Assembly (NCBI GenBank): GCA_949297145.1 | Contig: CASFQO010000014.1 | Coordinates: 1-64,000, forward strand | Direction of reading: 5' to 3' | Source of the DNA: an uncultured Alphaproteobacteria bacterium | GTDB taxonomy: Bacteria > Pseudomonadota > Alphaproteobacteria > RF32 > CAG-239 | DNA: 64,000 nt | Shown here: piece after piece, positions 40,786 through 42,636 of the stretch | Layout: the number at the start of each line of letters is the position of its first letter | How positions within the stretch are numbered: position 1 is the first letter of the stretch | Made by a program: the position numbers and the translations under genes | The notes under the pieces: generated by a model | The model's database searches: none | What the model was told of the DNA's origin: nothing | What the model saw: the letters and a program-made list of their open reading frames with translations, nothing else

Positions 40786-41507
40786 AAAAATCTCAAATCA
40801 AAAAATTACGCAAAACCATAAAAGAAAGCCAAAAGAAACCAAGTTTTTTCGGCTATGTCGTTTCTAAGCTGAAAACATACTTATTCACCGGTATTTTAGT
40901 AACCGCCCCCGTAACTATAACCTTTTACATGGCCTATGAACTATTTATCTGGATGGATAAATGGACCCGTGCTTTAATTCCGCCGCAAGTTGTCGCTCAT
41001 GAGCTCATTCCGTATATTCCGGGAATTGGTGTGATTATTTTAATCGCCGTTTTAATTTTAATCGGTATGTTCACAACCGGTTTCATTGGTGGATTCTTTG
41101 TTCGTTTAGGCGATTATATCGTTTCAAAGATGCCTTTGATTTCAAGCATATATTCCCTCCTAAAGCAATTATTTGAAACCATTTTTTCCCAAAAATCCAA
41201 ATCGTTCAAAGAGGCTGTTCTCATAGAATACCCACGTAAAGGCATCTGGATAATCGGTTTTTTAGCCGGAGACACAACCGGAGAATTGGCTCATAAATTA
41301 CACAACAAAAAGATGCTCAGCATTTTCGTCCCCACCACACCAAACCCGACATCCGGATTTTTGGTTATTGTTCCGGCAGAAGATGTGATAAAACTAAAGA
41401 TGAGTGTCGAAGATGCGCTAAAATACGTTGTTTCGTGCGGCATTGTTGTTCCGGAAGAAGAAAAAGACACATTTGCGCGTAAAGCTCTTGACAAACATCA
41501 TCAATAG
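40782..41507 (+). CDS. DUF502-family membrane protein
   Basis: 241 residues with two membrane helices (about 32-55 and 80-108), and the DUF502 motifs LFTGILVTAPVTITFY, PYIPGIGVIIL, PLISSIYSLLKQLFETI and VFVPTTPNPTSGFLVIVP. The family has no established biochemical role. It is coupled to recJ by a 4-bp overlap and lies upstream of the metK riboswitch. Confidence 0.87.
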   Translation: MKKSQIKKLRKTIKESQKKPSFFGYVVSKLKTYLFTGILVTAPVTITFYMAYELFIWMDKWTRALIPPQVVAHELIPYIPGIGVIILIAVLILIGMFTTGFIGGFFVRLGDYIVSKMPLISSIYSLLKQLFETIFSQKSKSFKEAVLIEYPRKGIWIIGFLAGDTTGELAHKLHNKKMLSIFVPTTPNPTSGFLVIVPAEDVIKLKMSVEDALKYVVSCGIVVPEEEKDTFARKALDKHHQ

Positions 41508-41544
41508 GTTTCTAATCACTCCGAAAGCGGAAAACAACCGCTTT

Positions 41545-41594
41545 GTGTGGATTTAACCTAACTTGTCCGACACCTGATAGGACTAAACAAGGAG
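41545..41594 (+). promoter_or_regulatory. SAM-II/SAM-V-like riboswitch in the metK leader
   Basis: The stretch reads stem GTGT, then GATTTAACC, a loop with CTTGT, closing strand ACAC, then TGATAG, CTAAA and ACAAGGAG. This order of stem, GAUUUAACC, stem, UGAUA and CUAAA is that of the alphaproteobacterial SAM-II class. Loop bases CTTGT (41562-41566) can pair with ACAAG (41587-41591) to form the pseudoknot and mask the Shine-Dalgarno AAGGAG before metK. Binding of SAM would then shut down translation of SAM synthetase. A 7-bp hairpin (AAAGCGG/CCGCTTT, 41524-41544) sits directly 5'. The short first stem is a weakness. Confidence 0.7.
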
Positions 41595-41601
41595 AACTAA
41601 G

Positions 41602-42636
41602 ATGAACAGGACTGCCGAATATGTGTCATTAGGACACCCGGATAAAATTGCCGACTTTCTTTCCAGCTATCTTTTAGACGAATGCCTCAAACAAGATAAA
41701 AAAGTACGTTATGCCGTAGAAGTTATGGTCAAAAACAACAACATCATTTTTGGCGGAGAAATCAGCGGCAAAGTCAAAATCGGTAATTTGAAAAATATCG
41801 CCAAACAAGCCTTGCGAGAAATCGGCTACGACGAAGAATATAACCAAATCTGGCAAGAAAACGCCATAGACATAAACAAAATAAAAGTCACCAACCTCAT
41901 TAGTGCCCAATCAGAAGAAATCAGTCAAGGGATTGATGCCAACGGCTGGGGAGATCAAGGCGTATTTGTGGGCTATGCAGAAAAGAGCCAAGGTCTAATC
42001 AATCAAGAGCTATATTTAGCCAAAAAATTAAACCAAGCCCTTTATGAAAAGGCCCTATCTTCAAACAATTTAGGCTTGGACATCAAAACACAGATAACCT
42101 TAGATGAACACGGAAAAATAGTCACAGCCATTGCCGCAGTTCCAATGTTAGAACCGGAAGATTTAAGCAAATTTATCACAGATATACTGGAACAAAAGCC
42201 ACAAAATTTAATCATCAACGGCACAGAAAGCTATCGCTGCCACTCATCTATTGCCGATTGCGGTATTACCGGCCGAAAATTAGCCTGTGATTTTTACTCA
42301 ACAGCTTGCCCCGTTGGTGGTGGTTCCCCATGGACGAAAGATCCAAGCAAGGCCGATTTAACCTTAAATTTATATGCGCGCAAATTAGCCATTCAATATC
42401 TTGAAGACAATGATGCTTGCTATGTTTATTTATCCTCGTGCATAGGTAAATCACAACTTCCGAGTGCTGTTATCAAAACAATAAAGAACGGGAAAGTTAA
42501 GATTGCAGACATCTGCCCAAATTGCGCCCCACAAACCGTAATTGAAGAATTGAACCTAGCCCGCCCGATATATAAAGAACTATGTCGCAAAGGTTTAATG
42601 AGCTATTTTAATAATCAAGGAAATCCAACCTTTTAA
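41602..42636 (+). CDS. metK: S-adenosylmethionine synthetase, short divergent form
   Basis: Makes SAM from methionine and ATP. Core motifs are present: LGHPDK near residue 11, NGWGDQGVFVGYA near 114, DCGITGRKLACDFY near 221 and GGGSPWTKDPSKADL near 237. At 344 residues it is clearly shorter than the usual 380-390, and substitutions are many (normal SEGHPDK is SLGHPDK; normal GGGAFSGKDPTKVDRS is GGGSPWTKDPSKADLT). Catalytic His, Asp and Lys positions look retained. A SAM-II-like riboswitch in the leader supports the assignment. dnaK follows 156 bp later with its own promoter. Confidence 0.87.
   Translation: MNRTAEYVSLGHPDKIADFLSSYLLDECLKQDKKVRYAVEVMVKNNNIIFGGEISGKVKIGNLKNIAKQALREIGYDEEYNQIWQENAIDINKIKVTNLISAQSEEISQGIDANGWGDQGVFVGYAEKSQGLINQELYLAKKLNQALYEKALSSNNLGLDIKTQITLDEHGKIVTAIAAVPMLEPEDLSKFITDILEQKPQNLIINGTESYRCHSSIADCGITGRKLACDFYSTACPVGGGSPWTKDPSKADLTLNLYARKLAIQYLEDNDACYVYLSSCIGKSQLPSAVIKTIKNGKVKIADICPNCAPQTVIEELNLARPIYKELCRKGLMSYFNNQGNPTF

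Follow-up and report, generated by a model that had tools for sequence, protein, structure and literature searches.

The phage-type metK gene and its leader

The window analysed here, a 64-kb stretch of DNA from an uncultured alphaproteobacterium, carries a metK gene on the forward strand (41602..42636) whose 344-aa product was classed with Pfam, TIGR and PHROG profiles as a phage-type SAM synthetase. The protein matches PF00438 and PF02773 above cut-off and PF02772 below it, scores 170.4 bits against the canonical profile TIGR01034, under the cut-off of 309.4, and reaches 244.4 bits against the phage MetK profile phrog_1569. The gene is flanked by a DUF502 gene and a dnaK-like ORF (dnaK being named from sequence), a neighbourhood that by eye is ordinary chromosome.

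The features of the leader, all on the forward strand, begin with a candidate promoter recognized by eye (TTGACA, 17 nt, TCTAAT; 41488..41516), which overlaps the 3' end of the DUF502 gene. A strict promoter scan lists none at 41488..41516, because in the second hexamer it accepts only A at position 2; the loose pattern TTGA[CT]-N17-19-nAnnnT occurs upstream of 34 of 86 metK motifs, a count made without a shuffle control. The pseudoknot-free fold of the leader (41518-41600) beats those of shuffled sequences (z -2.97, 1/200 as good). A CUCC:GGAG pairing in the MFE fold of the window was rejected, as it is missing by eye in relatives such as L006-L010. The hairpin P0 (AAAGCGG/CCGCUUU, 41524..41544; -8.8 kcal/mol, z -1.99, 9/200 shuffles as good) stands directly 5' of helix P1.

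Positions 41545-41594 read GUGU-G-GAUUUAACCUAACUU-GUCC-G-ACAC-CUGAUA-GGAC-UAAAC-AAGGAG and end 7 nt 5' of the metK ATG at 41602. This stretch likely forms an H-type pseudoknot, composed of helix P1 (GUGU/ACAC), helix P2 (GUCC/GGAC) and the core AUUU...UUG...CUAAA, and followed by AAGGAG. An earlier note on this DNA had proposed a SAM-II/SAM-V-like riboswitch at this place, and its reading of the letters is borne out: the SAM-II-like elements GAUUUAACC (41550-41558), UGAUA (41575-41579) and CUAAA (41583-41587) follow one another in that order near a short stem, the first stem pairs GUGU (41545..41548) with ACAC (41570..41573), and the ribosome site AAGGAG, the Shine-Dalgarno sequence (SD), occupies 41589..41594.

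In the window P1 is four pairs long, and a G.G stands on its inner side. Within the third strand GAUUUAACC (41550..41558), U41552-41554 match U8-U10 of the SAM-V riboswitch, and CC 41557-41558 could form helix P2a with GG 41591-41592 in the SD. The place of SAM-V A18 is taken by a C (41562) and is followed by the 5' strand of P2, UU-GUCC (41563..41568, GUCC being 41565-41568). The 3' strand, GGAC (41580-41583), belongs to a segment (41580..41587) in which, by sequence comparison, the bulged U41584 is the counterpart of SAM-V U47 and AAA 41585-41587 that of A48-A50. Both helices were assigned from the window together with its relatives. The hairpin P3, which would stand between the 3' strands of P1 and P2, is absent from the window; by eye, L144, L150, L157, L166 and L159 have a hairpin-like insert at that place. 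In its gapped form, the core pattern AUUUA-UUGUCC-GGACUAAA is found a single time in the 64-kb window and in 0/100 shuffles.

Conservation and covariation among relatives

A MetK search in 153 genomes of the family gave a match in 135. Thirty loci were read, the window's own included, and in 27 of them the motif was recognized by eye before metK; L023, L028 and L031 have a different metK leader. In a named genome collection, considered for its best 80 loci of 240 relatives, the motif lies at most 400 nt upstream of metK in 68 loci, 11 are without it and one has too little upstream DNA. The collection relatives are uncultured, mostly titled Alphaproteobacteria, and many come from guts and rumens; the MetK of one of them, L105, is a 99% match to that of the window, whose source is on this ground probably one of these organisms. 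The motif is also found in 3 of 46 viral-contig MetK loci. Among 60 viral contigs with the bare core, a script flagged seven for P1 and SD-like letters; three of the seven have an ORF within reach after the motif, and all three ORFs are metK. The occurrences in 57 of the 60 contigs were judged chance, as were 21 of 22 in another viral-contig search.

The model R1 was built from alignment A2, which comprises 60 distinct motifs collected with a search pattern that required P2, and it matches 91 of the 153 family genomes. In a sample of the class, 10/385 genomes match at E 0.01. Three of these matches (G000, G001, G097) fall in the window's family; outside the family, those judged real precede metK (L256, L258, L260) or other genes (L261, L262, L263), and L264, which lies opposite an ORF and is without P2, was dismissed as chance. 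In a sample of the phylum, the matches at E 0.001 are the window and L358 (2/398 genomes), the E-value of L358 being 4.8e-4 per genome, so that about 0.2 such matches are expected over the 398 genomes.

Five of the six P1 pairs in A2 are altered on both sides in some sequence, and pairing is kept in variants such as UCGUG/CACGA (L169), GAAUCG/CGAUUC (L144) and AAGGUG/UACCUU (L170). Over the 60 sequences P1 has 43 both-sides-changed cells vs 12.8 in shuffles, with 0/500 shuffles as high, and the count falls to 2-19 when the partners are slid. Two measures that resist relatedness gave values close to those of shuffled alignments: in A2, both-sides-changed pairs number 5 vs 3.3 (56/500 as high) and further pair types 10 vs 10.4 (399/500 as high); P1 analysed alone had a like outcome to the full A2 test. 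Covariation in P1 is clear by cells and by sliding, yet the independent events behind it may be few, because the relatedness-resistant measures do not exceed shuffles.

A broader set of 107 distinct cores, most of them metK leaders, was gathered by relaxing the search pattern and adding the non-metK copies, leaving out the viral-contig loci judged chance. In this set, P1 pairs 2-5 exceed all 500 shuffles and pairs 1, 6 and 7 do not exceed them. P2, invariant in A2, is GUCC/GGAC in 103 cores, GCCC/GGGC in two, GUUC/GAAC in one and a mismatched GCCC/GGAC in one, the change being compensated in 3/107. Conservation of the core and of P2 is partly by construction, since the search patterns fixed most of the core (AUUU, UUG and CUAA) and limited P2; the A at the A50 place, which the pattern left free, is present in 107/107 cores. 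The linker contains a CC, able to pair with the GG of the SD, in 100/107.

The same set corrects two points of the earlier note. UGAUA, offered as a SAM-II signature, occurs in 5/107 distinct cores, and the CUUGU:ACAAG helix put forward as the mask of the ribosome site is not conserved, being formable in 44/107 cores and in 2/12 distinct cores from the genus of the window. What the relatives conserve as a second helix is the pairing of GUCC 41565-41568 with GGAC 41580-41583. The region of P0 varies in sequence among relatives and keeps its pairing. A stem score of at least 5 is reached there by 54/86 metK loci vs 22.6% of shuffles and by 22/36 other loci vs 22.9%, an excess that is not a probability, as these loci are related.

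Relation to SAM-V, SAM-II and SAM/SAH riboswitches

At gathering threshold the Rfam matches are all tRNAs, three of them in the window and one among 12 motif loci, and the motif itself has no match in either scan. At permissive settings, for which E-values are given over all 4227 families, SAM_V appears over the window motif with 16.8 bits (E 1.5). Among 20 further stretches it lies over the motif, on the right strand, in seven (19.9-24.2 bits), two displayed alignments being in register with the motif, and it is not listed in the other 13; L157 and L121, scanned permissively, show no SAM family among their listed matches. A sub-threshold match of 29.1 bits (E 0.0025) was obtained on the reverse strand of L358 (1498-1567). 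The gathering threshold of SAM-V (RF01826), 41 bits, is therefore reached neither in the window (16.8) nor in the 20 stretches (24.2 at best) nor in L358 (29.1). That of SAM-II (RF00521), 36 bits, is likewise unreached, with no match at the motif in the window and the 20 stretches at E up to 10; 0/130 family genomes have a SAM-II match above cut-off, and none lies at the motif among the matches listed (to near E 0.5). No covariance match to SAM/SAH (RF01727) was found in the window, the 12 motif loci, L157, L121, the 20 stretches or L358. The earlier note had named the lack of a covariance hit as grounds for refuting its proposal, and at gathering threshold there is indeed no hit; SAM-V appears below threshold over the motif, and SAM-II is unlisted there. 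By the thresholds of RF01826 and RF00521 themselves, the window element therefore falls outside both families.

Several other matches were set aside. Freshwater-2 (RF02980) overlaps the window motif with 19.5 of the 49.9 bits required (E 0.41), and it was rejected because it is absent from the other motif scans. The fly lncRNA family bxd_5, listed twice below gathering threshold among the 20 stretches, was taken as chance; two further families are listed there once each. Matches to SAM-V and SAM-II below threshold at other places of the genomes were likewise attributed to chance, because 9/14 and 7/14 control genomes match too. A nucleotide match to a Rhodobacter phage covers 39 bases over an SD and start codon; the gene at that place is annotated as a short hypothetical protein, with no metK annotated nearby. 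Among the best-matching open-licence papers, none was seen to describe this RNA, nor a riboswitch upstream of a phage metK.

In its anatomy the element resembles SAM-V. SAM-V is an H-type pseudoknot, as the window element is predicted to be, with P1 and P2 ending at the SD, and both have the U8-U10 third strand, UUG, a bulged U, AAA and a two-pair P2a (PMC6061858). In the crystal structure of SAM-V, a metY switch, U47 and A50 anchor SAM and a U20:A48.U9 triple surrounds the sulfonium (PMC6061858); A18 is described there as paired with A50, and P2a as covering the SD in a translational OFF model (PMC6061858). The ligand-site nucleotides U8-U10, U19, U20, U47 and A48-A50 are all present in the window, though all except A50 are largely fixed by the search pattern. 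The pairing of A18 with A50 finds no equivalent, as the window has C. Further differences are that the window is without P3 and has the P0 hairpin, that its P2 is GUCC/GGAC, and that the element precedes a phage-type metK rather than metY.

With SAM-II (RF00521, SAM_alpha) the element shares a pseudoknot, GCUAAA in the consensus line and an origin in Alphaproteobacteria, and it differs in its shorter P1. The SAM-II pseudoknot contains GAUUUAACC. The sequence core of the SAM/SAH motif is different from that of the window element, and the likeness here is one of position, immediately before metK, where the SAM/SAH motif (RF01727) is found in Rhodobacterales (PMC2864571). The L358 element has P1 GGGC/GCCC, P2 GCCA/UGGC and a P3, sequences that differ while, by eye, the pairing is kept, and it looks like a bridge between the window-type element and SAM-V. 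It precedes an unknown ORF; the genome, a single contig of 1.7 Mb, is from another family of the phylum.

A motif kept by descent for some other reason, and resembling SAM-II and SAM-V by accident, would suit both the low SAM_V score of the window and the relatedness-resistant covariation measures that stay within shuffles. We regard this as highly improbable in view of the 107 distinct cores whose P1 pairing persists through change and is lost when slid, the compensated changes in P2, the L358 element, and the spread of the motif over genomes of several alphaproteobacterial families.

The place of A18 deserves closer attention, as it is C in 86/107 cores, the window included, and A in 21/107. 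The SAM-II/SAM-V fold might have been retained for sensing another ligand, such as SAH, methionine or a polyamine, with the change from A18 to C marking the altered specificity. Besides the predominance of C, this reading could draw on the target genes other than metK described below and on the precedent of SAM-I variants turned spermidine switches, a metK example included, which counsels caution in assigning ligands (PMC10853860). Yet in SAM-V, as described from its structure, A18 touches A50 and not SAM (PMC6061858), and the direct contacts are kept here. Moreover, the cores with A include the metK leaders L013 and L014 of the window's own genus, so that A and C look interchangeable at this place, and most of the 107 cores come from metK leaders. 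We therefore hold a change of ligand to be unlikely.

It is, in our judgement, likely that the metK leader is a cis-acting SAM riboswitch, representing a new variant within the SAM-II/SAM-V superfamily. The comparisons show a conserved arrangement, predicted to be a pseudoknot, that runs 3' into the metK SD and has the ligand-contacting nucleotides of SAM-V at matching places, with C for A18; from these we infer SAM binding by the leader, and switching. The kind of switch originally proposed for this site is thus the reading with most support, from its topology, core nucleotides, pathway gene, the P1 pairing kept through change and the sub-threshold SAM-V matches over the motif, and is revised as to the helix named for masking.

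Regulatory outputs, other target genes and the phage lineage of metK

On this riboswitch reading, the element would most likely be a translational OFF switch. When SAM is scarce, the third strand AUUUAACC would hang free, leaving the SD open and MetK being made. SAM would bind in the major groove of P2, with U41584 at its adenine end, A41587 at its aminoacyl end and the sulfonium facing a U-A.U triple; closure of the triplex would let CC 41557-41558 pair with the SD and translation would stop. metK is thus probably shut down when SAM is plentiful. Type A, to which the window belongs, comprises 51/68 collection loci and has 6-11 nt between the end of the motif and the ATG of metK, a spacing at which triplex closure should hide the SD.

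In the remaining 17/68 collection loci the motif ends 90-121 nt before the metK ATG. Nine of these form type B (L170, L171, L175, L176, L178, L180, L181, L183, L184), in which the motif supplies the SD of a leader ORF. That ORF extends across a hairpin, CCUUUGG...CCAAAGG, by which the metK SD is masked; the hairpin is present in 9/9 loci, with differing ends, and L170:4880-5000 provides an example. The arrangement points to probable translational coupling, in which SAM would stop translation of the leader ORF, so that the hairpin stays shut. The leader ORF enters a different hairpin in L121 and L127 and ends before the hairpin in L124. Four loci (L144, L150, L157, L166) make up type C and have a stem followed by a T-run, which suggests a terminator. 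A terminator scan of L157 gave none; the scan needs an uninterrupted stem, whereas RNAfold breaks the stem before the T-run into two pieces, of 5 and 6 pairs, and the terminator reading is therefore an interpretation of the stem and T-run. L159 was assigned to none of these types. In some relatives the same aptamer thus seems to drive other platforms, either a leader ORF whose translation would open the hairpin over the SD or, possibly, a terminator. SAM-II riboswitches are described in transcriptional and translational forms (PMC6061858), and the SAM-II leader of Sinorhizobium meliloti metA, where the SD exerts its effect on a start codon lying 74 nt downstream (PMC9373788), is a precedent for such distal platforms; it differs in that its described layout has a terminator between two AUGs rather than a leader ORF opening an SD-hiding hairpin (PMC9373788).

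Some of the genomes matched by R1 show only canonical MetK (e.g. G046, G049, G056). Forty-nine R1 matches were judged not linked to metK, and 40 of them were examined, with genes assigned by eye from translations. Within L215-L253, 20 precede a family of ~160-aa proteins, 14 an ankyrin-repeat protein (confirmed with Pfam on three) and two a ~200-aa protein; four of the 40 are cut or without a clear ORF, one of these, L254, being a metK-type copy at the edge of a contig. Ten of the ~160-aa proteins were aligned together with L261 (alignment A3). Pfam gave no match on five members of the family, which was not found in viral contigs. The cassette in L216 combines a copy of the ~160-aa gene with DUF3768 and a tyrosine integrase gene. 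In L262 and L263 a ~436-aa protein stands behind a divergent copy of the switch, and in L262 (190-1494) an N-terminus that by eye is like the ~160-aa protein is joined to a SprT-like domain (Pfam, L262).

The chief difficulty for SAM as the ligand lies in the ~160-aa, ~200-aa and ankyrin targets, which have no evident tie to SAM. They also bear on the idea of an autoregulatory leader, in which MetK or a phage protein would bind the pseudoknot and no small molecule would act. Phage genes can be autoregulated by a protein that binds the leader RNA, and the compactness of the RNA, its place at the SD and its frequent association with a single gene family would accord with this. That the element also stands before unrelated genes, that its core matches the SAM-V contacts and that SAM_V lies below threshold over the motif all argue against it, and we consider it very unlikely.

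In a quick tree of 59 MetKs, the motif-bearing proteins group with those of viral contigs (SH-aLRT 100), far from the family's canonical MetKs. Within the window's genus, 18/19 genomes have a MetK match and 0/19 one above the TIGR01034 cut-off, the nineteenth genome being 65% complete; phage-type MetK is hence the sole kind found in the genus (18/19 genomes), and four of these genomes carry two phage-type metK copies. Among 130 family genomes, drafts of varying completeness, 46 have a MetK above the TIGR01034 cut-off, 71 have only matches below it (mere fragments in G067 and G142), and 13, several of them at least 90% complete, are without a MetK match at E 1e-20, which SAM import might explain.

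In the viral contigs L296 and L046, a serine integrase, the switch, metK and a ParB/N6-N4 DNA methyltransferase occur together in a prophage-like order, with terminase genes further on; the methyltransferase gene adjoins metK in L296 and is two ORFs away in L046. The bacterial contig L148 has a large terminase by Pfam and by eye is otherwise like L296 and L046. This order of switch, metK and methyltransferase fits a phage that supplies SAM to its own methylase. A capture of metK from phage is suggested by the grouping in the MetK tree and would be one possible direction of transfer. A second kind of phage-type metK, without the switch, was seen in L123, L126, L128, L152, L136, L138, L141, L143, L160, L059 and L058, where the leaders often show by eye a hairpin and a T-run before the SD, possibly another form of control. 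In a phage collection, 117 records encode a MetK relative of less than 60% identity, and 90 of these records carry Streptococcus in their names.

These observations allow a bolder picture, which we put forward tentatively as somewhat less likely than not. A phage-borne, self-limiting SAM factory, made up of the SAM switch, metK and a nearby DNA methyltransferase, may have been captured by hosts, where it would have displaced their own essential metK in much of the family, switch included; integrase-linked cassettes may use the same SAM sensor for unknown and ankyrin cargo, making the SAM level a signal for mobile elements. The element would add to the SAM-II/SAM-V superfamily a branch that current Rfam misses at its thresholds, marked by one altered position beside the pocket and by a single aptamer serving at least two output platforms. 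It would also tie a riboswitch to the apparent replacement of an essential host enzyme by one of phage lineage, and its copies before unrelated mobile-element genes make it testable whether phages and cassettes read the SAM level of their host.
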